A DNA stretch of 64,000 bases from Xiphias gladius (Eukaryota; Chordata; Actinopteri; Istiophoriformes; Xiphiidae), in the NCBI RefSeq assembly GCF_016859285.1, contig NC_053404.1:18635105-18699104 (forward strand). Reading direction: 5' to 3'. Shown piece by piece: positions 3,964-60,602 of the stretch; position 1 is the first letter of the stretch, and every line of letters begins with the position of its first letter. Both the position numbers and the translations under genes were made by a program. The notes beneath the pieces were generated by a model. The model saw nothing but the letters and a program-made list of their open reading frames with translations, had not been told where the DNA came from and searched no databases.

Positions 3964-4197
3964 CTGTTTGTTCATGAATATATAAATAAAAGGGTTGATG
4001 ACTGTGGAGAACTTGGCCAGCAGGGATGGCGTGATGCTGGCCACTGGCGTTATAAGGTCACGGGGCCCAAAGGTCGCGAGCAGGGCCGCCACCCCGTACG
4101 GCAGCCAGCAGACCAGGTAGCACACCACCATGGTGACGACCATCACCAGCACCCGCTGCTCTCGGCGACGGTTCACCACCGAACTCACACTGCGGAC
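3964..4197 (-). CDS. tmtops: tmtops exon: ICL3, TM6, TM7
   Basis: 234 nt, 78 codons, phase 0 at both ends. The acceptor is a CCCTCAG and the donor is CAG|GTGAAG. It starts VRSVSSVVNRRREQRV, then TM6 with CWLPYG, then TM7 with the retinal lysine (LLAKFSTV) and NPFIYIFMNKQ. The break after NKQ is the usual place for the last intron of TMT opsins. Confidence 0.9.
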
Positions 4198-14164: not shown

Positions 14165-15385
14165 CTGAGGAAGGGGAAGTACAGAACAAGTGGTTAAAAT
14201 CCACTTTTGGATTTGCAAAACTCTTATTTTAATGAGGAAAGCAAAAAAAAAAAGGCAAGGAGGAAATGGACGAACCATTTCCTCCATACAGACTGTAATA
14301 GACCAGGACTAGCTTCAAAAACCCTTACACTTAGACAACAAGTAGACTCAAGTAACTGTTTGAAAACACAAAGAGAGGGAAATTCCCCATCAAGACCACA
14401 TCAGAACAGGTCTAGATCACAAACCACCTAGACTTGTCAAATCTGGACTAGATAAACAGGGACAGTTTAAAGACTGCGACTTGTGAAACCTTTATTCTAG
14501 TTGTGAAAATTCTTGTTAATCAAGCGCTGGTTTGATTTGGGTAAATGTGTGGGTTTTTTAAGCTGGACTGGGTCAACTGTTGTCTAGATGGAGAAAAAGC
14601 AGTGAATTTGTTTTGTTTTTTTCATTTTTATTCATTTATGTGGTTTAAAATAAATTCAAGGTTTCCCAAATCTGAAAGCAAGTGGCGTACCCCGGAGCAG
14701 CAATTTTTTTCAAAACTGGAGCATCTGCGTTCTCTTCCGCTCCAAGGCTGAGGGCGAGCTGCATTTGAAGTAAAACTTCTGCCTGTTTCGATCACTGGAA
14801 GGGCTCTTCCGTTTGCACCTCTAGGGCACAAACGTCCGATGGACAACACGACCGACATTTGCTGTGCTAACGAGCCGCAACTATGTGCGACCGGTCAACA
14901 GTCCGATTTACAAACTCAACAGGAACGTATCTTACTTCCCTCCGGACACTCTTCTGTCTGCTTCTGCCTGTATATTTGTATGCTCATAAAACTCAGAATT
15001 ACCATAAGGTTTCATTCAAGTTTGAACTTTTTCATCTCAGGCAGATGTGCCCCTGAATCAGCTCGCAGCGTGTTAAACAAATCCGCTTCTTTTTTTTTTC
15101 TTTGTATCTTTTCATATTCTTTGTTTGCATTAATAGTGCCACTACACATCCCTTTGGATTAAAAAATACTGGGATTATTCATCAAATTCGCTTCAATATC
15201 TGGTAATTGTGGCCAGCTAATGTGTTTTGAGAAGTTTGTTTTTAAACTTTGTGAAGATATCCTATCCAGACGTTTTCTTTTAATTCTGTACAGTTTATTG
15301 ATTTAATTAGTTTACTGTATTATCATTTGCATTTTGAACCAAAACCTATTCAGCCTAGTCAAAAACTATTACAAAACATTGAATT

Positions 15386-15926: not shown

Positions 15927-16338
15927 TCATGAATTCTGAAATTTAAAAAGTGTTTTTGTACATTTTATATGAAATAAATAAGGCATTTTTCCTACTTCCA
16001 GCTTATTTTCAGTCAAACCTTGGATCGAACCCTGAGCTCTCTGTTGTGACTCAACCTAAATCACGAGCTACTTGTATCATTACATCCTCAGTGGCCAGGA
16101 AATTCATCATTATAACCTGTTCACACTAAACAAACGCGAACGGAAACTCCCATTAAAGCAAAGGCAGACAGCAGCACAGCCGTGCGGAATCTTGTTCTAC
16201 GTGTTAATTGCTAATTGATGAACATGTGCTACTGGATTAAATCACTGCTAAAGTCTTAAATCAGAGCTAATCAGCACATGCGAGCTAAAGTGCTGGGCCA
16301 GGGGCACTTTACCTCCATTACACTGAGTCTCAGTCTCT

Positions 16339-18500: not shown

Positions 18501-19000
18501 NNNNNNNNNNNNNNNNNNNNNNNNNNNNNNNNNNNNNNNNNNNNNNNNNNNNNNNNNNNNNNNNNNNNNNNNNNNNNNNNNNNNNNNNNNNNNNNNNNNN
18601 NNNNNNNNNNNNNNNNNNNNNNNNNNNNNNNNNNNNNNNNNNNNNNNNNNNNNNNNNNNNNNNNNNNNNNNNNNNNNNNNNNNNNNNNNNNNNNNNNNNN
18701 NNNNNNNNNNNNNNNNNNNNNNNNNNNNNNNNNNNNNNNNNNNNNNNNNNNNNNNNNNNNNNNNNNNNNNNNNNNNNNNNNNNNNNNNNNNNNNNNNNNN
18801 NNNNNNNNNNNNNNNNNNNNNNNNNNNNNNNNNNNNNNNNNNNNNNNNNNNNNNNNNNNNNNNNNNNNNNNNNNNNNNNNNNNNNNNNNNNNNNNNNNNN
18901 NNNNNNNNNNNNNNNNNNNNNNNNNNNNNNNNNNNNNNNNNNNNNNNNNNNNNNNNNNNNNNNNNNNNNNNNNNNNNNNNNNNNNNNNNNNNNNNNNNNN
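18501..19000. other. Assembly gap (500 N)
   Basis: Exactly 500 unknown bases, the usual size for a gap of unknown length. It is flanked on the left by a CT-rich simple repeat. The missing opsin first exon could lie here. Confidence 0.99.
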
Positions 19001-20909: not shown

Positions 20910-38065
<17,156 letters not shown>

Positions 38066-43577: not shown

Positions 43578-46301
43578 ACAATACCATTCAATATTTTTAT
43601 CTATATTATAGAACATAAAAGGAAATTATATTACCATTTGAAAGGACACTTATCTTTATTTGCTCCTAAAAATGTACATTTACTAAAGAAAAGACCTCAA
43701 AATATTAAGTGTCTGGCTAATATTAGTAAAGCACCATTAAACCATGGACTTTGACGTGGGCACACAGGATCTTTGAAACAATAGATTTCGTACAGCAAGT
43801 GACTGAGCCCGGTACTTGTGGACTAAAGCAAAACAACAGTTTTTTATTTGGAGAAATGGTGGAAAATTTGCTAACACAACCACAAATTTTCACCCGTTGT
43901 ACTATTGTTTTTTTTCTTGTGTCAAATGGCATAGCCTGTGTAAAAAAATAAATAAATAAATAAAAATAAAGTGCTTTTAATCTGAAAAGCACAGTAACGG
44001 AAGTCTAAAAATGTTGTTTGAATGGAGAGTGGCATTCACATGAAAGGGCACTGTTGAGACATTGGACTGGAGATACCATTTGTTCCCACCCAGATTCCCA
44101 GAGGCGTTTAAAAGCTGAGGGATGCACACTCTTGATTGTGCCCTTGACATTTGCTGTAACACAAGATTTAAAAAAAAAACAACAACAAAAAAAACAAAAA
44201 AGTAGGACTCCGACAAAAATGCTAAGAATGATGAAAATGGGATCTAAAAACCATTAGGGACAGAAAACAGTCTAAACAACCTGAGCGGCCTCTGCAGGGA
44301 ATCTCAGGCAGTTTTTTGTTCTGCACTATAATAAAAACTATGAACTGAGACATGGTGGATGCTAAACCAGAGGATTTATTTCTCTTTTCTGCTAAACATG
44401 GAGATCACAGAAACAATATTTCAGAAACTTTTCCAAGTACAGAAATCATACTGAACAGGTTTTGATATGCTACAGTTGCCCGCTGAGCAACACAGTGAGC
44501 GGGGAGATCCACTTCCTAGTTACCCATTTTCCACCTCTGGATACAGAAATTTTCCTTTAATCCTTGTAGCAGATGTAGAAAAGTAAAAACAGTAACAAGC
44601 TCAACAGAACTGACGTGGTTCCAATTTGAGTAATGAAACATGGACATTTTGTTAGTTCTTATGCGTATGTTCGAATAAAATAAAGCAGGTTTTAAATGCA
44701 GTCCACATTAGAGTCTCAATGGGTTTGATGACGTACCCATCTTTTAACATGTTTACTACCGAGTGGACCCAGGTTCCTTGCTGATTAAAGCTAAATCAAG
44801 CTTTAGCTAAAAACCTGTGATAACATTTACCTTTTTTTTAAAATTCTGGTTTTCGGTTTAATATTTTATGCTGTTATGTTCCTCTTAACGGCGTTTTAGA
44901 GGCCTGACGATAAAACTCTGGTGAAAACACTGATTATCCATCTTTTTTTTAAACGGAGAAAATAGTCAAATAAAATATCGGCCATGGGCTCATAGACAGA
45001 AGAACATTGTTTTGTATCAGTGAAGACAGAACGTATTGGTTGGGCCCCAATTTGAGGAAAAGAAATGTTTGACATATGGTCCAGGTCTGTTGAGCTACAC
45101 CTCAGTAAAGCAATACGATAACATGCGGTTAAGTGGAAATACGCCGCTGAAACACATGCGAAGAGAGTTATGGCTTATGGAGTGAATTCATGTGTAGTAA
45201 AGCATTTGTGGCAAAGTCACTAACACAAAGAAACACGAGCAAGGTTTGGATATAATTAGGCTGAGACCAGGTTTGTTGCTAACTATAATATACGAAGTGC
45301 ATTTAAATATTTTTCCGTGCGCTAGTGTAGTATATTGAGCTCCTTGATTGCAAAACAAAGCTGTAATCTAAAGCACCCTCCGGGGTGCATTTATTTCTTT
45401 TAAGGGGAGGTGGGGTGATTTTAAAATTACCTGCACAGGTCAGTGATTTTTAATCCAGTCCGGAGAGCAAACGGGGGTCATTTTTCACCCCACGCCAGTG
45501 ATAATTAAAGACGCAATTATCTACCGTTTTGTTGGGGGGGACCCTCTGGTCCCCCCTGTAATTTAAATCCTGTCCAGAGCAACGCGAAATGTGACTTTTG
45601 TCCGAAAATTTTGTCCCTACATTTGTTTAGGTTCTGGCGAACTGGTGCCATTAAAAGTACACCGAACTAACTATTAGCAGTTCCTGTTTGAAATGTACCC
45701 AAGAATGTACAGACAACTACTGAGATACCGACGAAAACTTAACAATGCAATGATTTTCAGCCAGGTTCTGAGTCGTCTTTCTTCTACGATTTCCAAGCGG
45801 GTTTATGGACGTTAATCTGAGATGGACATGGGAGACAAAAATTTCCTCGGGAAGTGTAGGTCACTCTGAATGGTATCGATGTGTGTTTCATGTCGGTGCG
45901 TTCAGATTTGACTGAGTTATGACAAGGAGGAGTACGATTTTTGACTTTAATTCACCCCTCAGAGATCTTGGCCCCCCTGCCGGCAGAGGCTTTTGGCTTT
46001 GTCCTGCTGAATGTCCATTTCCATTACAGACCACATGCTGTAATTTCCAGATGGTACAAATTTCCATCCAGGACAACGTGTGACATTAACGATTAGCCCA
46101 GTGTAATGTTAATCCCGCCGGAATGGGGCTCACCAGACTCTACTGTGTTACGACCATAGTATGCGTCAGAAATTTAAGCACAAGGAAAACAGAAGAAATC
46201 AGAAGGACACACACTCTACAGGTCAGGAGGACTTTGCCTTCGTGTATACACACCCACACAAAAAAATAAAGACAAAAACAAATAAATATGTCAAGTATAA
46301 A

Positions 46302-46329
46302 ACTCTGGGAAACACTGTCCCCGATAAGT
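46302..46329 (-). promoter_or_regulatory. IRE 8 (3'-most), weak lower stem
   Basis: mRNA strand: bulged C, upper stem GGGGA/UUCCC (one G-U), loop CAGUGU. The lower stem pairs poorly (A-G mismatch two positions below the bulge). Upper stem and loop are canonical, so moderate confidence. Confidence 0.65.
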
Positions 46330-46347
46330 TGTTCCACCCGTCAAGTG

Positions 46348-46376
46348 AAATATGAGAGACACTGCTCCCGATAAAT
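46348..46376 (-). promoter_or_regulatory. IRE 7
   Basis: mRNA strand: UUUAUC bulge, upper stem GGGAG/CUCUC (one G-U), loop CAGUGU, three A-U pairs below the bulge and then U-U mismatches. Canonical loop and bulge. Confidence 0.78.
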
Positions 46377-46443
46377 ACACACGTACTGTAAAACACGCAC
46401 ACAATCACACACTGGTAGGCAAAAACTACCATCACTGCTTGTC

Positions 46444-46470
46444 ATTATGGAAGACGCTGCTTCCGATAAC
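46444..46470 (-). promoter_or_regulatory. IRE 6 with variant CAGCG loop
   Basis: mRNA strand GUUAUCGGAAG, loop CAGCGU, CUUCCAUAAU. All ten stem pairs and the bulged C are intact, but loop position 4 is C where IREs have U. The loop contacts IRP directly, so binding may be weaker or altered. Confidence 0.75.
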
Positions 46471-46478
46471 GGGTTTTA

Positions 46479-46505
46479 ATTATGGAAGGCACTGCTCCCG
46501 ATAAC
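46479..46505 (-). promoter_or_regulatory. IRE 5 (IRE-C type)
   Basis: mRNA strand GUUAUCGGGAG, loop CAGUGC, CUUCCAUAAU. Bulged C, five-pair upper stem (one G-U) and five-pair lower stem. Canonical. Confidence 0.95.
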
Positions 46506-47136
46506 TTTATCACATTATTAAGTGCTCCAAAGTAGACTGTGCAACATAAATGGCTTTCTTGCAAATATTGTAACCAATCAGCTCAGTTGTTAATTTCAGT
46601 AAAAAGGGGATTTGATAATAATGTCGTTAGTTTCTCAATGAATTTTGTGCATTTTTTTTTTTTTTTTTTTCAGTCTAGCATTCATCCTTCCATCAAGCAG
46701 AGAATAAATCAAGTTCAACACTTAATGTATCTCCGGGCTTGTGGTATGCAAATAAAAATTTCCATGTATTCAGACACTTTTAGTTTTCTTTTTGCTCCTA
46801 GTTTACTTTTTGGCAGACAAATCACGATAGTACCTGACACCAAATCAGGAAAACTTCTTTTCTAACCTTAATTTCTCCCTTTACGGTTTTTAAAATAACC
46901 GTTTGACGACAGAGAGTGAAGCACCACAGATGTAGCCCACTTGGCCAAAAGTAATGCGATAAAATTACTGTTTCAATGGTGCATACTCTCTTTGACACAA
47001 ATCAATCTCCACATGAAAGGAAGAAAGAAAGGCCAGAAAAGAAAAAGATCTAACTTTACTCCATTTTGTAAGCAACAGTTGAGGAGTCATTTGTGTAGCA
47101 GATGCTGCCGTGAGATCAGACAGTATAACCGTCATA

Positions 47137-47163
47137 ATTATGGAAGGCACTGCTTCCGATAAC
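47137..47163 (-). promoter_or_regulatory. IRE 4 (duplicate junction, B-type)
   Basis: mRNA strand GUUAUCGGAAG, loop CAGUGC, CUUCCAUAAU; fully paired stems. It sits between linker copies 2 and 1. The low-coordinate flank CCGTCATA is the same as at IRE 2. Confidence 0.95.
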
Positions 47164-47797
47164 TTTATCACATTATTAAGTGCTCCAAAGTAGACTGTGC
47201 AACATAAATGGCTTTCTTGCAAATATTGTAACCAATCAGCTCAGTTGTTAATTTCAGTAAAAAGGGGATTTGATAATAATGTCGTTAGTTTCTCAATGAA
47301 TTTTGTGCATTTTTTTTTTTTTTTTTTTCAGTCTAGCATTCATCCTTCCATCAAGCAGAGAATAAATCAAGTTCAACACTTAATGTATCTCCGGGCTTGT
47401 GGTATGCAAATAAAAATTTCCATGTATTCAGACACTTTTAGTTTTCTTTTTGCTCCTAGTTTACTTTTTGGCAGACAAATCACGATAGTACCTGACACCA
47501 AATCAGGAAAACTTCTTTTCTAACCTTAATTTCTCCCTTTACGGTTTTTAAAATAACCGTTTGACGACAGAGAGTGAAGCACCACAGATGTAGCCCACTT
47601 GGCCAAAAAGTAATGCGATAAAAATTACTGTTTCAATGGTGCACACTCTCTTTGACACAAATCAATCTCCACACGAAAGGAAGAAAGAAAGGCCAGAAAA
47701 GAAAAAGATCTAACTTTACTCCATTTTGTAAGCAACAGTTGAGGAGTCATTTGTGTAGCAGATGCTGCCGTAGGATCAGACAGTATAACGGGTTTTA

Positions 47798-47824
47798 ATT
47801 ATGGAAGGCACTGCTCCCGATAAC
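47798..47824 (-). promoter_or_regulatory. IRE 3 (duplicate junction, C-type)
   Basis: mRNA strand GUUAUCGGGAG, loop CAGUGC, CUUCCAUAAU. It sits between linker copies 3 and 2. The low-coordinate flank CGGGTTTTA is the same as at IRE 5. Confidence 0.95.
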
Positions 47825-48458
47825 TTTATCACATTATTAAGTGCTCCAAAGTAGACTGTGCAACATAAATGGCTTTCTTGCAAATATTGTAACCAATCAG
47901 CTCAGTTGTTAATTTCAGTAAAAAGGGGATTTGATAATAATGTCGTTAGTTTCTCAATGAATTTTGTGCATTTTTTTTTTTTTTTTTTTCAGTCTAGCAT
48001 TCATCCTTCCATCAAGCAGAGAATAAATCAAGTTCAACACTTAATGTATCTCCGGGCTTGTGGTATGCAAATAAAAATTTCCATGTATTCAGACACTTTT
48101 AGTTTTCTTTTTGCTCCTAGTTTACTTTTTGGCAGACAAATCACGATAGTACCTGACACCAAATCAGGAAAACTTCTTTTCTAACCTTAATTTCTCCCTT
48201 TACGGTTTTTAAAATAACCGTTTCGACGACAGAGAGTGAAGCACCACAGATGTAGCCCACTTGGCCAAAAAGTAATGCGATAAAAATTACTGTTTCAATG
48301 GTGCATACTCTCTTTGACACAAATCAATCTCCACATGAAAGGAAGAAAGAAAGGCCAGAAAAGAAAAAGATCTAACTTTACTCCATTTTGTAAGCAACAG
48401 TTGAGGAGTCATTTGTGTAGCAGATGCTGCCGTAGGATCAGACAGTATAACCGTCATA

Positions 48459-48485
48459 ATTATGGAAGGCACTGCTTCCGATAAC
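48459..48485 (-). promoter_or_regulatory. IRE 2 (IRE-B)
   Basis: mRNA strand GUUAUCGGAAG, loop CAGUGC, CUUCCAUAAU, all stem pairs intact. 25 nt downstream of IRE 1, like the mammalian A-B pair. Confidence 0.96.
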
Positions 48486-48510
48486 GTCGTATAAAAAGAC
48501 AAACAATAAC

Positions 48511-48537
48511 TTTATAGTGGACACTGCCACTGATAAA
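48511..48537 (-). promoter_or_regulatory. IRE 1 (IRE-A)
   Basis: mRNA strand UUUAUCAGUGG, loop CAGUGU, CCACUAUAAA. Ten perfect pairs and bulged C. The stem matches human TFRC IRE-A (UUUAUCAGUGA...), with a CAGUGU loop. Confidence 0.96.
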
Positions 48538-48898
48538 AAAACAAACAAAAAAAAACAAATAACATAAGTGTAAATAAGGTTTCTCAGTGTTTTGATGGCA
48601 AGAGGTCACAGCTAAAGCTTGGACAGGTGTGATGTGTTAGGGTGGAGCCAGGAGGAGGCGATTTGTCTGAAGCATCTAACTTCTTCAAGTATTTGGTGCT
48701 GGTTCACTTCTTTTTCTTTTTTTTTTGTGATACTTTTAATTACTTTTCTATCTCCTCCTGGCTCTTTGTGGGACAGAAGGTCTGTTCCCCACATAAAAAC
48801 TTGATTATAAGCCTGTATATAAAGGGTGGGACCTCTGATTGACAGTTTGTGCTTGAGTGCTGACATTGGAGCTCCTCACTCTGCTCTACAATTCATCT

Positions 48899-48969: not shown

Positions 48970-49182
48970 TTAGATTTCGTTGTCGATGTCCCAGATGTTT
49001 CCCACCATGGCGTTGGCACACCCCTGCAGGTTCCAGGTGGCCAGGGCCAGCTGGGTGCGGAGCCGCTCCATGTCGGTGGCCTCAGCGATGGATGCCAAAG
49101 TGTGGGAGCCCCGGCCCAGCACGAGGTGACGGAAGGGAGTCTCAATGGGGGACACATATGGAGAGAGGAGGGTGTGCTCAAC
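48970..49182 (-). CDS. tfrc: tfrc coding exon 18: helical domain end and stop
   Basis: 213 nt, phase 0, TAA stop. Encodes [48 protein letters not shown] and [10 protein letters not shown]. The mammalian loop with the Asn727 glycosylation site is shortened and has no sequon here. Confidence 0.97.
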   Translation of the reverse strand, partial: VEHTLLSPYVSPIETPFRHLVLGRGSHTLASIAEATDMERLRTQLALATWNLQGCANAMVGNIWDIDNEI

Positions 49183-52100
49183 CTGGAATGAATGAAAAAA
49201 AAAAAAAAAATCATAATACATTTGTGAGGTTTTCAGAAAAATGTTTAACAGAATCAGTAACGGCAGGATTATTCCCCTGATGTTTAAAAGTGTCTTGTAG
49301 TTTCAGAAAAAACATTGTATTGAAAGCTGGCATTGAATGCTTGTTCAGATTTGTAGACGTTTTTTGTTTATAAACTTATTTGTCAATGATACAGTTTTAG
49401 ATGGCAAGATGACGCATGTTATTTAGGTAGAGTCCTTGTACAGCTGCTGTAGCCTGGACAATATGTAGCATTTTGTTACATGAAGTGTTGGTTTAGTATC
49501 GGTACAGAAATTCAGGATTTGTCTCAGCACTATCATCATGCCGTTCCAGACAACAACCGTCCCTAGCGTCCTTGCTAAAGAGTCTTGCTAACAGAAATGT
49601 TCATAGATTATCATCATTATAAAACTAGGTTATGTAATTCAGTAGAAAGAGTGGAAGGGAAAAAAAAAATGTATGCAAATCTTCTGCTGTAGCTTCAGTT
49701 ATTATACAGCCATGAGAGCAGAGAGCCAAAGCAGACCTAGGATCAGCAAACCCTAACAAGGAATCAAGGGGGCCTTAAATATAAATGGATTAAAAAAAAA
49801 AAAATTAGTAATTTGATTATTAATCATCAGTTAATTTAGCAAAAAAAGAAAAACACACACATTCCCAGGTTGAGGGCACTTAGTATTTTATTTATTTATT
49901 GTTCCTCCTGGGCTCCATGGGGAAGTGTTGCTATTAACCCCGCTTTTAAAAAGGCAGTTCGATGGAGACAATTTTTAAATATTCAGGTGACTACGCAGCA
50001 GAGGTGTCACAGTATGCGTCTTACCCTCATGATCCTGTCATTGATGATCCGGCAGGCCTCCTTGTCATTTAAGTCAGTGTTGACGACGGCTCTGTTGATG
50101 CTGTCAGCAGCTCGGTAGAAGGAGCCTCGTGCACGGTTCAGCCAGCTGGGACTCACGTCCTTCAGCTGACCAGACTACAAATACAAAAAATAAAATAAAA
50201 TTTTAAAATAAATCAATTAATTAAAAAACTCAAATACACATCAACATATTCAAATTTCTTGGGACGAAATTAGTCTGGTCCATACGTCAAATTCATAGCC
50301 TGCTCAAGAAAAATACACGTTCCCTCTAATACCCAGAGAAACCTAACTGTTTCGTGTACAGCATCGACGTTTATGTGCCAGGCCATCCAGAGGCTGTATG
50401 TAAACCAGAACACTGAATCAACCCATCGCAGAGAGACACATTTCCAAACTATTAATATACATCCACACAGAAAAGAGCGGAGAAAGTGTGAGAGACGGCG
50501 AGACCGACCCGTAAGAGCTGGTTGATGCGTTTGTAGATCTGGGCCACAGCCGTGGTGAGGATGCTGCTGTAGCGGCTCACGTCCAGACTGAGCAGGTGGT
50601 CGTGGACCAGTCGCACGGCCATCTGGCCGGCAAACTGCGCCGCCACCGCCGTCATTTCGCTGGTGCAGTGGTTGGTTTGGTAATCCAGGTGATCCATGTT
50701 GTCCAGGCTGGTGCCATAGTAAGTGTAGGACTCAGTCTTCGGACACAAACATGCATAGATGCACATATGAGCTAGGAACCAACTAGATGTCAGCAAACTG
50801 CACACAGATAGCAATATTTTTTTTTTTTTACCAAACAGGCTGTTCTGCCAGTTAATGTCTTTTTCTTTACTTTTTTAAAATTGTGTTGAGACAGCAGATC
50901 CAGAAGCAGTGGGCAGTATGTTTGATTGTAGATTTCTAATCCGATTATTTCAACCAAGACGAAGGTAACGTGCATGTTTGCATTCACAGTTTGTTGTGTA
51001 TAAACCCAAATATGAAAAATATTACTGCTAATAATCAGTAGAATTCCACATTTTAATTGGCCTTAAAACTCACATCGGGGGACATGAAGTGGAACGAGAT
51101 GGAGGGAATTCCAGAGAAGGCCAGGAAGGGATAGGCAGGGTCGTCTATCGACATTGGCTTCAGTCTGTCAACATGATAATGTAAAGTTATTTTCCCAAGC
51201 TATTGGCAAAAAAAACAAAAACAAAAAACAAAAACTTATAACTCTTTCTATGGCAAAAAGATGGTTGGTTCAAGTAAATTTCTATGGGCCTGGGTATCGA
51301 ACCTCAAAATGATCTTTGGTAGCAAATGCGTCTGCAGCACTGAGTATCGGAAATTGTCAGGTACTGAAAGCTGGCTTGAATGCCTGGTCCGATTGATCAT
51401 TTTCTTTATTTATTCTAAAATCAGGCAGTTCCTGATTTAAATTAGAACTTGCCAATTTTAAACTGTATTTCGTTTAGGTAAAGCACTTGTGCAGCTGCTC
51501 GTGTTTAAACAACGGTGATATTTGAGAATTAAGCTTATTTTGGAAATGGAAAACATAGGTTCTCAAAGTAAGGTATCTATAATCGGTACCGAAAATCAAG
51601 TATTGTATCGTAAAACACTGAAGAATTGCTGGCAGCAAGACCTAGATTTCTGTGGTTTTGGATTTACTATTCACAGTATTTGAGGCGTTTCATTTCTAAA
51701 GACTAAAAAACGTAAAAACATGAAAACTATCCTCACAAAAATGATGGAAATATAAACAGTAGGTAATTTTAAACTTTCTCTAATGCACAATTAAAAAAAA
51801 AAAAAAAACAAAACCTGTAAAAAGCAAGGATTTACAAACTGGTTCCCTACTTACGTATTGGCCTCCCAGTTTTTCCTCCCCACCATGTCGTACACAGTGC
51901 CAGAACCAAGAGGACTCTTCACCTGTATAGACGAGGCAGATAACCGTCACTACAAACTGCAGGCTGGTTTGCAAAGGAGCCGGATCACCGTGAGGTGGTG
52001 AGTTGTTACCTCTTTCATTGTGCGCTCAATGAGGCTGAAGAGCAGCGGACTAGCTGAGGCCATAAAGCTACCCCGACCTTGTGAAAAAAAAAAAAATATA

Positions 52101-53679
52101 TATATATATACTCAGACAACTGACAACCTTTACTATTGGAGAACTGAGATATACTATGTGTGTGTACATACCCATAACTGCTCCATCCAGGCTTATGTAG
52201 GTGAAAACGCTTTTGTCAATAGAGGACATATAACCCTAAAAAGCAAAGTCACATGAAAGGACACTTGTGGTACAGCATATATTTTATTCTATGGTGCGTC
52301 TTCATCACAGTCTTGTAGTTCTTACCTCCAACCACTCAGTGGCGCCAACATTTCCATACTCTCCAGCAGTCCAGCTTGCAAACACAAGGCTTCTCCTCGG
52401 CCTGAATCCATCTAAATAGATAACACACGTGAATTATATCATTGATGTCATGCAGACAAACAAACGCATATTTATTTGTAATCATTTAAGATAAGAGTCT
52501 AACCAGATTGACAAATCCTAACACCATGATTCCAAGACAAGCCTCTCTACTACTAAGAGTAAAATTAAAATTGCAAATTACAAGAATATAAGGGGTGAAC
52601 ACACGCCAAGGAGGTTTATAAACAGGTTTATAAACAGGAGGACTCTGGGAAGAGTGGACTCAAACAAAACTAAAGCAGATCACAAGAGCATTCTTTTCCT
52701 TAACAACAGTGTCTGTTTTTCAGTGTCTGTGCGATATACAACTACTTGACAAGGAATCAGGAACAGGCATCAACTGTAGCGAGCTGAGAGTTGTCACAAA
52801 CCACCAGAGGAGTCGAAGACTGTAACTTTGCTTCTTCATCATCCTTTGTAAAACAAATAAACCGCTCTTTTCTGTGTTGTGACAATGTTAAAATTATACA
52901 TTAAAGTAACAGAAATATCAGAAAGTGAGCCTTTGAATTGTCACTCTTCCAACACGCTGGGATCTCCCTCCCAAGCACTGCTAAATTCCTCTCCACAGTC
53001 ATGGCTCTACGTCTGGTAGGGTCACTTAGGGCAGCGATACCCAAGCAGGGAGGTACTTGTGCAGTTGCCAGAGGGTACGCGGAAAGACGGTGGAGTAGCT
53101 CAGCCAATTCGAAACAGCAGAAATTATGACTTGAAATAGATTTTAAAAATATATTAGTGCCCACATATTTGTGTTCATGAGAAAAATAAAAACAAATGTG
53201 TGGGCAAACTAATTCACCGTCAAGCAGAGAAGTCAATATAGACAGCGAAGAGTAACGGATGAACTGGTGAATCCGGCCTCTTCAAGTGGCAGCAGCATGA
53301 AAGCAAACCTGACAAAATCCACTGGAAAGTACGGAAGTATGAAAAACTAGTGTGACAATAAATAATGCTGAAAAACATCCAGTTTAAAGCAAATTAAAGA
53401 GAAGACGTGTGGAACATGACGTGTGGTCACTGAGTTCATCTGACAAGGTTGTGGGGGTAGAGAAGACAAAAAAGGCTACACACTGTGTTTCCAGGACACT
53501 GATCACATACACTCCCCCCCTGTTCATTGTGTTCATCAAATAAGCATTGTTACCGTTCTCCACCATCTCGTGAACAGCCTTGGCCAGCTCCAACAGTATG
53601 GAGCTGCCAACAGTGGCCCGGGCATAGCCTTTACCCCAGGCGTCTCTCTGAGCTCCCAGTACAACGTAGCGATCTGCAG

Positions 53680-53718
<39 letters not shown>

Positions 53719-55611
53719 TTAGATGTACAAAGAAGAAAAAAGAAAAAAGAAATCCTACCGTGGATGATTACAGTAAAAAACTGTTAGGTCCTACCAGGAT
53801 CAGAGAATCCTTTGATGACCCCAAACACATTGTGGATCTCCCTGTTCACCAGCACGTTGTTCACCTCAACAGTGATGTTCTCGATGCCTCCAAGTCTGTA
53901 AGACACTGACCTGAAGCCGCCCTTAAAACCGCTGCTCGCATCTGATTCAGGGCCGTAGATTTTCCTGGAGAGGAAGACAAGGACAGGCGGAACTGGTGAA
54001 TGACCCTGAACTGTGCCAGAGAGTCTACCGCTGTGGCCAGTTTTCCAGTTTCCACATTTATTCAGCCGATTTAGCAGATTTACTTAAAGAGCGAGTCAGC
54101 TTTCAAATATTAAAAAAAAAAAATTCTTGCTGTGACCAAAGTTGAGTCTGTGGAGTCAAAGATCTCATGAAGAAAAACCTTTCCGAAAAAAGTGTGCTTA
54201 CAGTGCAGTAATGTCAACCAAGTTTGAACTCTACACTCTACATTCAAGTCTTTTTATTTCCAGTAAATGTCTGCAAACAATCAGAAAATAACAGACTGGT
54301 ATCTGGTAAATACATATACAGGGTTTCTTCAGTGTTCACTGAATTAAATTGAAGGCTTCTACAATTTCTTGACATGTATATCACATTTTTTGTCAGTACT
54401 TCCCAGGTGTATGTAACAGTAATAATATAATTCATCCATTAATGTGACCTGTACACATGTGTTGTATGAGCAGGGGCCCAGGGGGGAGCTAGGGGGGGGG
54501 AGAGGTAGGGAGGCCCCAGAGCCAGGTCTCTGTATAAAGTCACTTAATAATAGTTAATAGTTATTATGTATTGAGTGAAAGTCACAGAGCTCAATTAAAA
54601 GACTACGAATAGAAAAAAACCCCAGCAATTACAAAATAAAATGATTAATTTGTTAATTTAAGTTTTTAATTGACACTTGTCCACTCATCTCCGGACAGCT
54701 AAAGGTTCTAACTCATGTTAAGGTCTACGGCAGGCAAGAAAAAAAATAATCATGACCTTTGTAAAATGAAACTTAACCTCCCAACATCAAACAAGAGAAG
54801 TTCACAGTCATGTTATGTCCAGCAAACTTGACTGAAGGTTTCAGTAAACATGATACTTCTGGTTAATGCTGTTGTCCAAAGCGCAACAATGAATGTACAT
54901 ATTCATTGTGCCTGTGTCTAACCATTGGATCCGCGAAAGGCTGTTTGCCTCTGATGTGTTTGTGTGTGTATTCGTGTTACAGGCTGTCTTACTGTAGAAG
55001 AGTAGATGCCATGTTGGCGGTGATAGTCTGGGCTGGGATTTTGGGGAGGCCAGACGACTGGGTTGGGGGGAACTGGGTGTGGTTGAAGGAGGGGAATCCA
55101 GGCGTGTAAGGGTCGCCTGAACCCAGATGGACCTGAAGGCGACATGAAAACAAAGATCAGGGCCAAGTAGTTTCAAAATGAGACTCTACTTGTTTGCTTG
55201 GTTAATTGGCTTTTACAGCATTCTACAAAAAATGTGTGTGTGCAAACTTACATGTCCGTACAGCGCTGTGTCCGCTTGATACTTGTAATCTTGACTGTCA
55301 GGGTAGATTAGAACGGCAGAGGCCCCCTTTGTTGCAGCATTATCCACCTGAAGAACCATAATAGGAAACAACAGAAACATTAAAAAAAAAAAAAAAAAAA
55401 ACCAAGATGAGATTGAGCAGCTCCAGAAATCAAGAAATTGCTGCAACTGATTTGTGGCATACGAGGGCATGAAATCAGCACATGCCTGCTCTGCAAAACT
55501 GATCTTTCCGCTCCGGAGCAGCAGTACACTGTCTTTCAGCTCGACGTTCTTCTTCTGCAGAACATCCAGATCCTCCTGACGACCGTAGTTGCCATACACC
55601 AGCTTGCCCTA

Positions 55612-55685
<74 letters not shown>

Positions 55686-58600
55686 TAAATAGGTCCCAAC
55701 ATTAAACATACAGCTAAAAAATTATTCTAGCAACAAATCCCCTTTTAACAAACTCTAAGACAGGGCAATTTTATTTGTATAGCACGAAGGCAATTCAAAG
55801 TTCTTTATGTTATGCATGAAAAACGTTTTAAAAAAATGGAAAAACAGACTAAACACATTAAAATGCAAACTAAAAGAATAGGACCTGTAAATTTACAAGT
55901 TAAGAACATTATAAGTTTATGTTTCATTATAAGTCCTGGATGACACAAGGATATCATGCACTTGAACTCAGACCCAAGGCCTAAATTTAAGTAACAAACA
56001 TGAACTTTTTTAAAACTTTTGACTTTGGGAGTGTCAACTGTATATATATAAAAATCGACCCACCTGCACTTTCCCAGGAGCACTGTAGGCCAGGTACCCC
56101 ACAGGCTCGAAGACATTTGACCCAAAAAGGACACGGTTTGGGCGATTGCTGCCAACAAAAAAGAAGCTTGTTACGATATCCATATTGTGTTTCTGTTTCC
56201 TGTAAAACTTTACTTTACAGCTCTGTAACTTCCTGCTACCTTTCTAATAATTTTCTAGTAAGTTAGAGTTTATTTTGTTGACTATTTACTGTAAACTTTA
56301 GTTTGGTGTATATTTGTTCTCAGTTGCTATTTGTACTTGCCTCTGTCTTTATTTTATTACTATAATTACACCTATACTTGTAATTAGTACCAAATTACAA
56401 TCTTCTGTATGGGAAATTGTTGAGGAAATTATATGAAAATTCGTATTTGGAAATTTTAGGCCAGTTAAAAGAAAAAAGGAAAAAACGAAAAAATGATTAG
56501 AACTTAGATCCAGGGGCTTTTACAGTCAAATGATTAAAAGGCCAACAGTCTGACAAAATGTTCCTGTGCCTCTGGGATGGTCATGGAAATGTTTTGAAAT
56601 GTTTTAAAATTTCCATGAATGAATAAGGCACCTAATCAGCAATTCAGGAGGGTGCATTTGACCTTGAGTTACAGCGCCCCCAACAGGCCAACAAGAATAG
56701 AGACGTTGAAACGCTGCTTAAAACTTTGGACTCGATTTATATCACCACCCTCAGACAAAACTGTGACATGATAAAGAAATGTCCCTAAAAAAAAAATAAT
56801 CAGAATCAATTCATTTATTAAATAGGTGTTGTATTGACCTGTCGGGCATCTGCAGCTGAACATAGTGTCTGTCGGTCCAGGGATCCATCTCCAGCCTCTT
56901 GAATTCATCAAAGATGCGGTTTGCCAGATTCATATCTTCTGCACTTCCTGCCGAGCGCCTGGGCAGATCGAAATCCCTGCAAAGGGAACAAAATCATTTC
57001 TTCCTGCCAACTTGGTCTGAGTTCTGTCTTCTGAGAAGACTTGTGTACAGTTAAACCGCTTCTGAGAAAAGATGACTCATGAGCTTTTTTAGAAGACACA
57101 ACATACTTTGTTGTGAGCCTTTGTCTTTGAAGGAAACTAGAAAAAAAAAGGAAGACGCGGTACAGGGTTTTGGAATGAAAGTGTTTTCAAAATGTCAAGG
57201 CTGAGCCGATTTCAAGGCTTGAGGAAATACCGCTGTCGTTAGGCTGTGATTACCAGTATGGTGTACGGGGGACGCTCTGCAGATCAGTTTGCTGAAGGCT
57301 TGGTGACAATTGTGAGACAATCTAGTGAGTTTAAAAAAGGAGTTTTCATGCCCAAGCCTTAGAAAAAGGAGAATGATTTTTTTGTATCTAACTTTAGGCA
57401 GGATCTGGAAAAATTAAAGACCTGCAGTTCATGGCAATAGTAAGAACTTTTAATATTCACATAGCTTAGATAGAAAACTACAAAGACAGGCAAAACTATC
57501 CCGTAGAGACAGAAAACGACAGAAGAAAAAGAAAAAAGACACAAAACCACTAGAAAGAGACATAAAAACCAATAAAAAAACAGACAAAAAATGACTACAA
57601 AGAGATTCAAAACAGAAAAAAATTATGGATTCATTAACCAATTAAAAACATATTAAATTAATTAGTTAATTTAGGTTTTTGCTAAAATTCACATCTCTAT
57701 TATGAGCTGAAGGCTATTAAGACCAACTGACATTTTAACACAGGATTTACTTTGGAGAGACTATTTTAATTGTGTTTTTCCACCTGGGATCATTTACTTG
57801 TTAGTTTATTATTTGGCAACAGGTCTGTTTTTGAATTGTTCGCCGTTTGCATGGTAAGATGTGTTCTTTCCTGGCTTCACCCTCAGCATAACAACATTAA
57901 CCTGAGCGTGGTTTGAGGGCATGCACATTAAAACTTTACCTCAGTGTCTTGTCAAAGGCCTGGCTGGTGAGTTTCTGCGTGAGGAGTTCGGTGATGTCCT
58001 TCCAGTCCAAGTGAAATTCTGGAGCTGGTGCAAAATCCGCAGGCGGCGTCACCGGCTCCGCGTTCCCCGGCTCCGCGTTCCCCGGCTCCACTCGAGGTTT
58101 ACGGTGGCTGATGTAACCAACCAGGTAGCCTCAAAGACACCAAGTACAGAGACACCAACGCTGTTTTAAAATAGAGCCTGACCAATAAATCAGTCGATTT
58201 AAGTTAATGTAAGTAACAAGAAAATAAAATGATTGAAAGAAAAGACAGGTGCTTGAGCTATCTTATTACCAGTGTTAGTACCTGTTGTTAAATTAGCTAG
58301 CCACGAAGCCAGCTAATGCCATGGCTTGTCAGTGGAAGACAGCAAATGAGCCGCTAACTTATACTCGTTATACTCACTCTGCCTAAATGACGTAATAAGG
58401 TAAATATATCCACGACTTGAATGTCAGTACAATCACAGTCTGAGGATTGATATTATACAGTTAGTTTGTCTCAAAGGTTTAAAGCTAAGACACAGTGCCT
58501 TTTCAGAAATAACACTCAGCAACTTAGCTAATGTCCAACTATCCCTTTTCAAAACAGCTGGCTAGAACTGGTAATATTCGAGGGATTATTAGACCAGCAG

Positions 58601-60602
58601 GAAAACACCAGAAGTAAACGTGTGCACATTGAGACAAGTAAATGACAGTGAAAGCTGATTCAGATAAAGTCTACATTAAGAAGGTAGAAAAGTTTAGAGC
58701 AGCTTTCCGACACTGCTGCTAGAGAGTGCTGGAGAGACCAGGGACGTGGATCACATCACTCCAGTTCTCGGGTCTCTGCGCTGGTTTCCTGTGTGTCAAT
58801 GAATTAACTTTAAAATACTACTGTTGGATTTATAGAGCACTGAATGATCCAGGGCCAAAATACATCTCTAATCTGCTCTAAGGAAGGTGTAAGTTCACTG
58901 CATGTCACACGGTGCGAGAGGGGTCCACTAAAATCTTTGCAATCGTTGCAATCTTTCTCAGATTATAAGATGAACACGTGTTATATCGCAGCATTATGAT
59001 GTAAACAGATAATGTTTTTTAAAATGCAGCAAAACAATGGACACGCTTTGGCCATAGTGCTGACACATCGCAAGGTATTCTTCTTTGCCCATAAATGTTT
59101 TTTTTTTTGTTTTGTTTTTTTAAATTAAATAAAAACGCACCCTCTTAAACTTTATCAGAAATCGCATTGTGTAAAGGAGCCTTTTATGTCTCCAGAGTCA
59201 AAACAAAATTTGCATCATTTATCTGGAACAAACTCTAAGAAAACTTGAGGTCTTCTCAAAATCTCTTAAAATCGAGGCTTAAATTGTTTCTGTTTGGAGC
59301 TGCCTTTTAAAAAAAAAATAAATGAAGGATGGTCTTGCACTGCAAAGCAATTTTAATACTCCTATTAATCCATTTGATTCAATATTTAATTCTATTTATG
59401 TACGTCATTTTTATATTCCCTCGTGTTTCTTTTATATCTTGTATTAATGCCTTTATGTGTTTTATGTACAGTTCTTGTTGCCTTGTTGTCAAAAAGTCCT
59501 ACATCCTACTTCACTAGGAGGAGTAAGTTTTAACTAGTATGGTATGGTACTAGTAATGCTTAAATATGAGAAACAGCATCACTGGAATGCAATGGAGTCC
59601 AATTTTTCAGGCTGGTCCCAAATTATGTCATTTATTTACAATAATTCTTCCAAAGTTTCTGCGTTTATTTTCAAAATCATACCGTGTATTGTATTGTGTG
59701 CATCATCTGAAATGAACTGTCGATTTACCCATTAGACAGCAACAATTTTAACAACCGATTAATTGTTTAAGTAACTTTTTAGGTGAAAATGTCAAAACAA
59801 TTCGTCGGTACCAGGTTCTGAATGTGAAAATTTAATAATAATGACTGTTTTGTTAGTTAACTTAATATTTTTGGATTCTGGACTGTTGTTTGAACAAAAC
59901 AAGACATCTAAAGCTAGTAACGCAGGTTTGGAGAAATTGTAATGGGCCTCTTCATACACTAAACAATCAATCAAGAAAATAACTGGCAAATTAAATCAGA
60001 AATAGAGATAATTGTTAGTTGCAGGCCTAAAATCATGACTGGTTGTCATAAAAACACACATAAAAGATGACAATGAGCATGACCTACCAGTAACAAATAT
60101 CATCAGGATTCCCAGGGCCAGGTAGCAAATATTACGCCAGTTCTGATGCAGAAGTGCTGGCCTGTAGCTCGGAGAGCCCCCCGCCTGCCCCTCGACCTCC
60201 ACGGCATCATCTGTGGCATCGTCGGAAAGTTTGACCTCAACGTGGCTCTCGCCGTCATCCATCGGCTGCAGGGTGAACCTGCTGTACCGCTCGCTTTTAA
60301 TCTGGAGTGAGAAAAACAAAGATAGTGGAAGATACGAGTGAAAACTATAAAACAGAAGCTGCAGGGGAAGATGGGCGGGTAAGTCCTTACTAAAGGACCA
60401 AATTTATTTTGAATTGTTACAGTTTTTAGTTTCAGCTACTGCAAAATGGATCAAGACATTGTACTGTCTACTCTACCTGCTCAATCACATAATAAACAAC
60501 ATGTAAAAATGCGTAAAACATCACCTCAAAATGTGAATAGCAAACACTCACCACGTTGTTAAACGCGGACCTCACTCGATCCATTGTTGCTGTAGTTGTC
60601 AT
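48970..60602 (-). CDS. tfrc: Transferrin receptor 1, complete
   Basis: Type II membrane homodimer that imports iron-loaded transferrin by clathrin endocytosis. The 18 coding exons are 60552-60602, 60088-60301, 57940-58129, 56839-56976, 56064-56148, 55486-55608, 55252-55347, 54993-55132, 53795-53964, 53554-53673, 52326-52411, 52172-52235, 52010-52077, 51855-51922, 51074-51164, 50509-50736, 50025-50174 and 48970-49182. They sum to 2295 nt, 764 aa plus TAA (human 760 aa), with all phases consistent. Layout: cytoplasmic tail with internalisation motif YSRF (23-26), one transmembrane helix (about 74-95), stalk, apical (PA) domain, M28-peptidase-like domain, and helical dimerisation domain ending [10 protein letters not shown]. 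Sequons at Asn316 (NHT) and Asn375 (NIT). Odd points: RGS (660-662) replaces human RGD, and the stalk has no cysteine. Start: [14 protein letters not shown]; Met7 aligns with human MDQARSAF, so either Met could serve. Expression is likely iron-regulated through the 3'UTR IREs. Teleosts have tfr1a/tfr1b; I cannot tell which this is. Confidence 0.97.
49290..49540. repeat. Dispersed repeat family F copy 1 (tfrc intron)
   Basis: Contains GAAAGCTGGCATTGAATGCT, TAGGTAGAGTCCTTGTACAG and TTAGTATCGGTACAGAAATT, matched by the copy at 51285-51620. Class unknown. Confidence 0.55.
50025..50174 (-). CDS. tfrc: tfrc coding exon 17: transferrin-binding helical region
   Basis: 150 nt, phase 0-0. Encodes [20 protein letters not shown] then [14 protein letters not shown] aligns with human ARGDFFRA, giving RGS for RGD. 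Ends NDRIMR. Confidence 0.96.
50509..50736 (-). CDS. tfrc: tfrc coding exon 16: start of helical domain
   Basis: 228 nt, phase 0-0, donor CGG|GTCGGT (weak). Encodes [12 protein letters not shown] (human YLGTTMDTYKEL), [16 protein letters not shown] and [10 protein letters not shown]. Confidence 0.94.
51074..51164 (-). CDS. tfrc: tfrc coding exon 15
   Basis: 91 nt, phase 2 to 0. Encodes [20 protein letters not shown] then SISFHF, matching human AAFPFLAYSGIPAVSFCF in the protease-like domain. Confidence 0.95.
51285..51620. repeat. Dispersed repeat family F copy 2 (tfrc intron)
   Basis: Contains GGTACTGAAAGCTGGCTTGA, TTTAGGTAAAGCACTTGTGC and ATCGGTACCGAAAATCAAG. Same family as 49290-49540. Confidence 0.55.
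51855..51922 (-). CDS. tfrc: tfrc coding exon 14
   Basis: 68 nt, phase 0 to 2. Encodes [20 protein letters not shown] then AN. Confidence 0.92.
52010..52077 (-). CDS. tfrc: tfrc coding exon 13
   Basis: 68 nt, phase 1 to 0. Encodes [20 protein letters not shown], equivalent to human NFKVSASPLLYTLIEKTM. Confidence 0.94.
52172..52235 (-). CDS. tfrc: tfrc coding exon 12
   Basis: 64 nt, phase 0 to 1. Encodes [20 protein letters not shown], equivalent to human [20 protein letters not shown]. Confidence 0.94.
52326..52411 (-). CDS. tfrc: tfrc coding exon 11
   Basis: 86 nt, phase 1 to 0. Encodes [20 protein letters not shown] then VGATEWLE, the conserved TfR1 [17 protein letters not shown] block. 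Confidence 0.96.
53554..53673 (-). CDS. tfrc: tfrc coding exon 10, acceptor behind a TG repeat
   Basis: 120 nt, phase 1-1, so it could be skipped in frame. Encodes [19 protein letters not shown] then VHEMVEN (human [19 protein letters not shown]). The acceptor GACTGCAG is preceded by about 32 nt of TG repeat in place of a normal pyrimidine tract. Confidence 0.95.
53682..53714. repeat. CA microsatellite abutting a tfrc acceptor
   Basis: About 16 AC units directly upstream, in transcript sense, of tfrc coding exon 10. Confidence 0.95.
53795..53964 (-). CDS. tfrc: tfrc coding exon 9
   Basis: 170 nt, phase 2 to 1. Encodes [29 protein letters not shown] (NIT sequon) and [15 protein letters not shown], matching human KILNIFGVIKGFVEP. 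Confidence 0.95.
54993..55132 (-). CDS. tfrc: tfrc coding exon 8
   Basis: 140 nt, phase 0 to 2. Encodes [20 protein letters not shown] then FPP-Q-SSGLP-IP-QTI. Very close to the human block, including the NHT glycosylation site (human Asn317). Confidence 0.97.
55252..55347 (-). CDS. tfrc: tfrc coding exon 7
   Basis: 96 nt, phase 0-0. Encodes [20 protein letters not shown] and ALYGH, part of the apical (PA) domain. Confidence 0.95.
55486..55608 (-). CDS. tfrc: tfrc coding exon 6, GC donor and TG-repeat acceptor
   Basis: 123 nt, phase 0-0. Encodes [20 protein letters not shown] and [13 protein letters not shown] (human RAGKITFAEK). The donor is CAG|GCATGT, a GC donor; a GT four bases later would break the frame. 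The acceptor TACGTAG follows about 68 nt of TG repeat. Skipping would delete 41 residues in frame. Confidence 0.93.
55613..55680. repeat. Long CA microsatellite (about 34 units) abutting a tfrc acceptor
   Basis: AC on the plus strand, hence UG in the tfrc pre-mRNA, ending only a few bases before the splice acceptor of coding exon 6. Confidence 0.95.
55742..55812 (-). mobile_element. Short LINE/SINE 3'-tail fragment
   Basis: GCAATTTTATTTGTATAGCAC and AATTCAAAGTTCTTTATG are the inverse of common fish LINE/SINE ends. Only a fragment remains, in a tfrc intron. Confidence 0.45.
56064..56148 (-). CDS. tfrc: tfrc coding exon 5
   Basis: 85 nt, phase 2 to 0. Encodes [20 protein letters not shown] then YSAPGKVQ, matching human GGYVAYSKAATVTGKLV at the apical-domain start. 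Confidence 0.93.
56839..56976 (-). CDS. tfrc: tfrc coding exon 4
   Basis: 138 nt, phase 2-2. Encodes [20 protein letters not shown] and [13 protein letters not shown] (human VWRDQHFVKIQVKD). Confidence 0.93.
57430..57625. repeat. Degenerate short tandem repeat (ACAAAGAGACACAAAA-like)
   Basis: Loose repetition of AGACAnAAAAnnAC(T/C)A units in a tfrc intron. A decayed minisatellite; AT-rich antisense frames over it are not genes. Confidence 0.5.
57940..58129 (-). CDS. tfrc: tfrc coding exon 3: membrane exit and stalk
   Basis: 190 nt, phase 1 to 2. Encodes [20 protein letters not shown] then a second EPGNA copy, [20 protein letters not shown] and LR. The stalk carries no cysteine, unlike human (Cys89/Cys98). 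A 15-bp unit is directly duplicated at 58054-58083. Confidence 0.93.
58690..59510 (+). pseudogene. LINE 3'-end relic (L2-like), interrupted
   Basis: GATCACATCACTCCAGTTC and CTGCGCTGGTTTCCTGTGTG correspond to the H-ITPVL-SL-W-PV motif of LINE ORF2 C-termini, followed by an [12 protein letters not shown] reading. A second block near 59205-59290 reads as F-IWNKL...LK-FLF. Stops and an AT-rich interruption break it. Lies in a tfrc intron, antisense to the gene. Confidence 0.6.
59719..60030. mobile_element. TIR-type repeat family A copy
   Basis: Starts ACAGCAACAATTTTAACAAC and ends GAGATAATTGTTAGTTGCAG; contains ACCGATTAATTGTTTAAG. Intronic in tfrc, opposite orientation to the 35774 copy. Confidence 0.55.
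60088..60301 (-). CDS. tfrc: tfrc coding exon 2: cytoplasmic tail and TM
   Basis: 214 nt, phase 0 to 1. Encodes [20 protein letters not shown] with the YSRF endocytosis signal (human YTRF), an acidic stretch, and [18 protein letters not shown], the signal-anchor helix. Confidence 0.96.
60552..60602 (-). CDS. tfrc: tfrc coding exon 1 (start)
   Basis: 51 nt of CDS. The acceptor TCTTTAG lies one base before the ATG, so the 5'UTR is mostly in an upstream exon. Encodes [17 protein letters not shown]. Donor GTG|GTGAGT. Confidence 0.93.

Follow-up and report, generated by a model that had tools for sequence, protein, structure and literature searches.

Eight IRE-type hairpins in the 3'UTR of a swordfish transferrin receptor 1 gene, four of them copies of IRE B within a tandem repeat

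Why the mRNA of transferrin receptor 1 (TfR1; gene TFRC) carries several iron-responsive elements (IREs) in its 3' untranslated region (3'UTR) is, to our knowledge, not settled; in mammals, non-IRE hairpins also lie between these IREs. In iron deficiency, iron regulatory proteins (IRPs) bind the IREs and guard the mRNA from endonucleolytic decay, for which at least three IREs are needed; the mammalian number is five, A to E, and in 2014 the TfR1 mRNA was described as the sole transcript with multiple IREs (according to the passages of PMC4112806 drawn on here). IREs have been recorded in two salmon tfrc paralogues (PMC8544657), and the "eight IREs" mentioned in a passage of PMC7034838 are coding-region motifs of sponge mRNAs. 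Among the papers listed in searches of the open-licence literature, outside which most subscription papers lie, no report was found of a TFRC that exceeds five IREs or carries tandem IRE units. Here we describe the tfrc gene of the swordfish, Xiphias gladius, in a 64,000-nucleotide stretch of contig NC_053404.1 (C5 in our numbering; assembly GCF_016859285.1; positions 18,635,105 to 18,699,104, forward strand), the whole of which we call the window. As assembled, its 3'UTR holds eight IRE-type hairpins, laid out as A, four copies of B, C, D and E, and the extra IREs appear, from the repeat structure, to be specifically a gain of IRE B, through the copying in tandem of a unit of 660 nt.

The eight C-bulge hairpins lie on the minus (mRNA) strand, the first of them 434 nt past the tfrc stop codon (48972-48970, minus strand). 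A first-pass annotation of this DNA had listed eight such hairpins, seven with CAGUGN loops and one with a CAGCGU loop, and all eight were located at the coordinates and with the loops given there; the loops are CAGUGU in A, D and E, CAGUGC in B1 to B4 and CAGCGU in C. When scored with the Rfam model RF02253 (IRE_II, gathering score 30), IRE A (48510..48538) reaches 39.6 bits, B1 (48458..48486) 39.7, B2 (47797..47825) 40.0, B3 (47136..47164) 41.1, B4 (46478..46506) 40.0 and C (46443..46471) 37.9. The check with an IRE covariance model that had been called for therefore holds for six of the eight hairpins (37.9-41.1 bits) and fails for D (46348..46376; 23.3 bits over 46347-46377), whose lower stem is weak, and for E (46301..46329; 22.7 bits over 46300-46330), whose lower stem is mispaired; both stand below the gathering score. 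Under a strict rule, namely a CAGYGN loop, a C bulge, five upper pairs and at least two adjoining lower pairs, seven of the 136 CAGYGN sites of the window's minus strand match, every one inside the array. None of the 140 such sites on the plus strand matches under either the strict rule or a looser one. Sixty first-order Markov sequences of 64 kb gave a mean of 0.017 strict matches (maximum 1), equivalent to about 0.0007 in a stretch of the array's length against the seven observed, and on these figures chance hairpins are ruled out. IRE E matches the loose rule only, which has a chance level of 0.73 (maximum 4) and also takes an unrelated site at 16231-16259. Scanning the genome with IRE_II (E <= 0.001; 87 of 179,762 candidates scored) returned eight matches, all at two tfrc genes, five at the window gene and three at a second tfrc on contig C14, hereafter the sister gene. 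Separately, the matches to the IRE_I model (RF00037) listed at E <= 0.001 were C3:636910-636944 and C1:22195425-22195460, at 47.9 and 46.8 bits (82 of 361,786 candidates scored).

The features of an IRE were taken from Volz 2021 (PMC8466369, its features 1-5). A bulged C8, an upper helix of five base pairs (G-U pairs allowed), U or C at position 19 and, by loop sequence, the cross-loop pair between nucleotides C14 and G18 are present in all eight window hairpins. The AGU triplet at positions 15-17 is present in seven (A, B1-B4, D and E); IRE C has AGC instead, through a change of U17 to C, and for this reason we do not file it as a classic IRE. Functional IREs are expected to have only U at position 17, and a CAGCGU-type loop is expected to be non-regulating, in the relevant passages of the same source; the loop of IRE C also falls outside the CAGWGH given for SIREs 3.0 in part of PMC12230718. 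A fair statement of the folds as modelled is that there are eight IRE-type hairpins, seven with a canonical AGU triplet, and that five of these (A and B1-B4) are also predicted to have at least five lower pairs.

The repeated linker noticed in the first-pass annotation proved to be part of three units standing in tandem on the minus strand, unit 1 of 661 nt (47825..48485), unit 2 of 661 nt (47164..47824) and unit 3 of 658 nt (46506..47163). An IRE B opens each unit (B1, B2 and B3, respectively), so that IREs stand at the borders, and is followed by two small hairpins, which we name SL1 and SL2, and by the linker; in unit 2 SL1 is broken. IRE B4 is a truncated fourth repeat, 35 nt before IRE C. 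The units are 98.8-99.7% identical, with 6 mismatches in 660 positions between units 1 and 2, 2 in 658 between units 1 and 3 and 8 in 658 between units 2 and 3 (2, 3 and 3 gap columns). All 12 differing columns of the alignment fall in the first 263 of 662, and the final 399 columns are the same in the three units, which suggests a young age of the copies or their recent homogenisation. A 30-nt 5' flank is common to B2, B3 and B4, B1 has a different flank, and the similarity of B2-B4 to B1 starts at GTTATCGG, the 5' arm of the IRE. Directly after the hairpin a variant is common to B2 and B4, and B1 and B3 are alike there; past the variant the linker follows in B2 and IRE C in B4, GTTAT being present in both. 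We infer that these borders fit an exchange in which the IREs served as short homologous sites.

The sister gene provides a yardstick for this array. It has five IREs in the order A-E, of which four exceed the Rfam gathering score (D has 29.4 against 30) and four carry the AGU triplet. Its IRE A (L016:3595-3623) has the loop CAGGGU, with AGG, which our pattern scan does not take, and was found by Rfam; the pattern was run on five fetched stretches and Rfam on three of the five. When the two 3'UTRs are compared by blastn (E <= 1e-3), four shared blocks are recovered, IRE A, IRE B with SL1 and SL2, IRE C with a third small hairpin, SL3, and D-E; apart from these, B IREs match C IREs crosswise, and a poly-A tract also gives matches. 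The block of IRE C and SL3 is 87.5% identical over 64 columns, and the detectable conservation of each repeat unit with the sister gene is confined to its first ~70 nt (IRE B, SL1 and SL2, reaching ~40 nt past the IRE). The two genes thus have in common the A-E array, SL1, SL2, SL3 and a nearby tnk2-like exon, whereas the sister gene has a single B, a B-C distance of 300 nt and better paired C, D and E. In the sister gene IRE A is non-canonical and C canonical, and the reverse is found in the window gene, where A is canonical and C has CAGCGU; by this comparison the two duplicates appear to have altered different IREs.

Since the sister gene has five IREs, also the number that the first-pass annotation gave for mammals and that PMC4112806 gives in the passages used above, the window gene likely began with five, and the eight would be a gain in this copy. 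Given that all five positional counterparts, A to E, are present among the eight hairpins of the assembled gene, we regard the array, judged by its sequence, as a variant of the TFRC IRP/IRE control region and not as a different system. With the mammalian TFRC 3'UTR it shares the gene, the location, the Rfam family IRE_II and, via the sister gene, the A-E layout. It differs from it in having IRE B four times, the accompanying hairpins and linker three times and eight IREs instead of five, and in its changed C loop and weakened D and E.

What was copied with IRE B is not only an IRE. SL1 has a 6-bp stem, with one G-U pair, and a UAU triloop; in unit 1 (48441..48455, minus strand, as for all of these hairpins) it is conserved with the sister gene, and its pair probability is 0.92-0.96 for the five outer pairs and 0.74 for the loop-closing pair. 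In unit 3 (47119..47133) the five outer pairs reach 0.92-0.95, whereas at the SL1 position of unit 2 (47779..47793) the stem is destroyed, with a pair probability of 0-0.01, and the hairpin is absent from the fold. SL2 (GCAG-CAU-CUGC) is kept in all three units, at 48420..48430 (probability 0.34-0.37), 47758..47768 (0.48-0.53) and 47098..47108 (0.50-0.54), respectively. SL3 (GGUAG-UUUUUGC-CUACC), between C and D at 46414..46430, is identical in the sister gene over its 17 nt and has a probability of 0.61-0.76.

These small hairpins recall the stem-loops recognised by Roquin and Regnase-1. The search rule for the Roquin constitutive decay element (CDE) is a stem of 6-8 bp without G-U and a YRN triloop, and a search for Roquin targets based on the CDE named TFRC, already associated with Regnase-1 (both from part of PMC6294493). 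A pyrimidine-purine-pyrimidine triloop rule, and destabilisation of the TfR1 mRNA by Regnase-1, are stated in a portion of PMC12982082, and IRP binding is said, in a portion of PMC13148413, to protect the TfR1 mRNA against Regnase-1 and Roquin-1. SL1 (UAU, 6 bp) and SL2 (CAU, 5 bp) fit both triloop rules; they depart from the described elements in that the SL1 of the window gene contains a G-U pair and SL2 has a stem of 5 bp with an outer G-U. In the window 3'UTR the strict CDE rule, without G-U, finds 0 hairpins, and with one G-U allowed it finds two, the SL1 of units 1 and 3; the SL1 of the sister gene fits the strict rule. SL1 and SL2 seem to be marked not by their number but by their survival between old duplicates in otherwise unalignable sequence, and it is possible that the SL hairpins work like a CDE. 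One unit is therefore best described as probably a stabiliser plus putative destabiliser module, copied together. Since the units also carry conserved decay-type hairpins, the earlier expectation that more IREs raise IRP occupancy omits half of what was copied. Regnase-family PIN domains (PF11977) are found in the genome at 20 places on contigs C4, C8, C12, C13, C16, C17, C22 and C24; these matches are at the level of the family, and some have stops in the read-through frame.

Based on these observations, we lean, with some confidence, towards a model in which the tandem-copied module of IRE B and decay hairpins gives a wider or steeper iron-dependent mRNA stability. The ancestral layout would have been the five IREs A-E that are still present in the sister gene. 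A tandem copying of IRE B, its attached hairpins and the linker would have followed, for which unequal exchange between IREs of nearly the same sequence is the probable mechanism, with B pairing against C first and the copies with one another later, to give A, four B, C, D and E. Each full copy would add one IRP-binding IRE and, beside it, one or two hairpins with a YRN triloop, of the type that Roquin and Regnase-1 recognise. When iron is scarce, IRPs would occupy A and B1-B4, and D and E less strongly, the decay hairpins would be shielded and the mRNA would be stable. In iron-rich cells, with the IRPs off, the exposed hairpins would number two for SL1, three for SL2 and one for SL3, instead of one each. 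The outcome would be a wider, larger or steeper iron-dependent change in mRNA stability and not merely a shifted threshold; the first-pass annotation had thought of a changed iron threshold or range following from eight IREs, a consequence that we too can only infer.

Several observations weigh against this model. First, the effective number of IREs would be lower than eight, as the C loop is altered and the lower stems of D and E are weak; in the IRE form D has an energy of -2.8 kcal/mol and E one of -2.2 kcal/mol, and their counterparts in the sister gene stand at -8.5 and -11.3 kcal/mol, respectively. When the hairpins are folded singly with short flanks, six of the eight reach z <= -2, the others being B1 (z -1.33) and D (-4.7 kcal/mol, z -0.96). 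IRE A may not count despite its canonical loop, given that human TFRC IRE A, which has A at the loop place where the window IRE A has U, is not an IRP1 interaction site (in the part of PMC8466369 that treats it). B4 and C are predicted to fold jointly (46436-46512) at -19.3 kcal/mol (z -2.46), in a structure in which neither IRE hairpin forms, compared with -7.6 and -9.7 kcal/mol for the two separate hairpins; IRP binding could switch this segment between the joint fold and the separate hairpins. In local folds the IRE upper stems of the window gene have probabilities of 0.10-0.67, those of the sister gene 0.25-1.0. When the whole 3'UTR is folded globally, hairpin values are low except for B1; we set this fold aside as unreliable for long RNA and used local folding instead, and under global and local folding alike the formation of all eight hairpins at once is not favoured. 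As for the small hairpins, the SL1 of the window gene contains the G-U pair, and in unit 2 it is broken. CDE-like hairpins with at most one G-U are in weak excess over shuffled sequences (2 against 0.77 with at least 6 bp, 7 against 2.4 with at least 5 bp, where the repeat itself and overlapping alternatives inflate the count of 7), as they are in the sister gene (1 against 0.53 with the longer stem and 3 against 1.4 with the shorter). Furthermore, the SL1-SL2 stretches fold barely better than shuffles (z -1.35 and -1.22, and 0.07 in unit 2). Finally, IRP binding, the decay effect and the transcript of the window array are all predicted from the DNA.

The explanations that compete with this model are partly compatible with one another, so their likelihoods are not shares of a whole. 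The main rival is a neutral, minisatellite-like expansion of the 3'UTR, tolerated as extra IREs saturate, with iron regulation little changed or not changed at all; we think it rather unlikely, while taking it seriously. It accounts for copies as young or homogenised as these, 98.8-99.7% identical and the same over the last 399 columns, and for an SL1 broken in one unit, a C loop lost and D and E weaker than those of the sister gene, all as under relaxed constraint; at least three IREs, moreover, suffice already (PMC4112806, in the passages cited). What it does not lead one to expect is that all four B hairpins keep their full upper pairing and CAGUGC, a point to which copies so young lend little weight.

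The array length rests on one assembly, and the copy number could be an artefact of haplotype merging: each allele would have two linkers and seven IREs, with a middle copy of the B2 or the B3 type, and the assembly would have chained them, or the copy number would be wrong in some other way. We consider this unlikely. The alternation of unit types, with B1 and B3 alike and B2 and B4 alike just past the hairpin, could come from two merged alleles, the two one-base deletions of unit 3 lie in T runs, as residual read errors would, and the window contains a scaffold gap of exactly 500 N at 18501-19000. However, two new junctions, from B2 to linker and from linker to B3, have to be present in actual molecules, so that, barring chimeric reads, the gene should truly have one extra unit or more. 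A second copy or leftover haplotig was not found elsewhere in the 690.8-Mb assembly.

A third possibility, which we hold to be very unlikely, is that upstream polyadenylation (at the ATTAAA of 48740, of B2 at 47799 or of B4 at 46480) produces isoforms with fewer IREs, the copy number in the mRNA then being set by the choice of 3' end. The ATTAAA hexamers at 47794-47799 and 46475-46480 overlap the 3' arms of B2 and B4, and not those of B1 and B3, and they arise from the shared AATTAAAACCC variant overlapping the IRE lower stem. Such hexamers are nevertheless common by chance in AT-rich sequence (the array has a GC content of 0.36), and, since IRE C with SL3 and D-E are conserved between the two genes, transcription should extend over the distal part. 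ATTAAA is also a weaker polyadenylation signal than AATAAA, the first of which downstream of the array, a putative signal, is at 45390..45395 (minus strand), with ATTAAA also at 45951 and 45454. A mobile element as the source of the repeat is ruled out, as the unit is found at this one locus in the 690.8-Mb assembly apart from the short B block of the sister gene, in a search that skips very common words and scores the best candidates only. Searches for the pattern of IRE B plus SL1 in viral_contigs and in genome_contigs gave 0 matches each, which is what one would expect of a gene from an animal.

As assembled, the array shows that IREs and probable decay hairpins can multiply jointly and that IRE positions turn over. 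With four IREs of the B type, compared with the single one of its sister gene, it offers within one animal a natural experiment on whether the number of modules governs the iron threshold, the iron range or neither of them. A bolder generalisation, for which we see a slim chance, is that the TFRC 3'UTR evolves by the copy number of this module, with the IREs as mutual recombination substrates; array length would then be an iron-range dial that varies between individuals or species, turned up in one of the two sister genes here while the distal C-E are being lost.

The identity of the gene, tfrc in the first-pass annotation, stands. Its multi-exon coding region spans 48970..60300 on the minus strand (5' limit approximate), as judged from TFRC matches in the PDB and from tblastx; the peptide of the last exon matches TFRC chains, with a best E of 2.5e-18, and a tnk2-like gene is its neighbour. 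Comparison of the window gene with the sister gene by tblastx kept 18 pieces (at least 20 aa and at least 30% identity, minus frames) totalling 634 aa at 58% identity, 16 of them upstream of the tfrc stop codon and two in the 3'UTR; one coding piece ends at a stop codon, probably at the end of an exon. The coding pieces align in order along the gene, no sign of a pseudogene was seen, and the gene is, on its sequence, apparently intact. A transmembrane-like stretch was recognised by eye in a 5' exon within 59996-60403. Pfam was less informative, as a TFR_dimer search of the genome gave three matches with the window gene not among them, and eight ORF pieces of the gene gave just two matches, both below cutoff, to PA and to DUF2760, the latter taken as chance.

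A search of the assembly (690.8 Mb, 1298 contigs) with the last-exon peptide found two further loci, on C14 (60%) and on C12 (54%). Exons of a tnk2-like gene lie at 34080-35436, ~14 kb from the window tfrc, with a SAM_TNK match (1.7e-21) and a kinase fragment that matches activated CDC42 kinase 1 in nine of the ten chains listed; the tnk2 peptide has no match in the PDB, and the tnk2 kinase ORF none to a Pfam family. A tnk2-like exon 93% identical to that of the window lies ~57 kb from the sister gene. TFRC and TNK2 are neighbours in human as well. With a tnk2-like exon near both tfrc copies, those on C5 (the window) and C14 are most simply read as two teleost duplicates of a single tfrc-tnk2 block.

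A third SAM match, on C12, is distant from the tfr-like gene of that contig. An Rfam search of 9.9 kb at the 3' end of this gene, taking in the surroundings of its last exon and the sequence past it, found no IRE; the hairpin pattern matched there once, weakly, and not on the strand of the gene. An absence of IREs is expected of TfR2 (PMC12045970, in the portion concerned), and the gene on C12 is probably tfr2. Elsewhere in the window, exons of the rhodopsin family (Pfam 7tm_1), opsin-like by eye, lie at 13785-14228 and 3922-4299, and a match to the mir-728 precursor family is found at 580-642 on the minus strand (75.5 bits).

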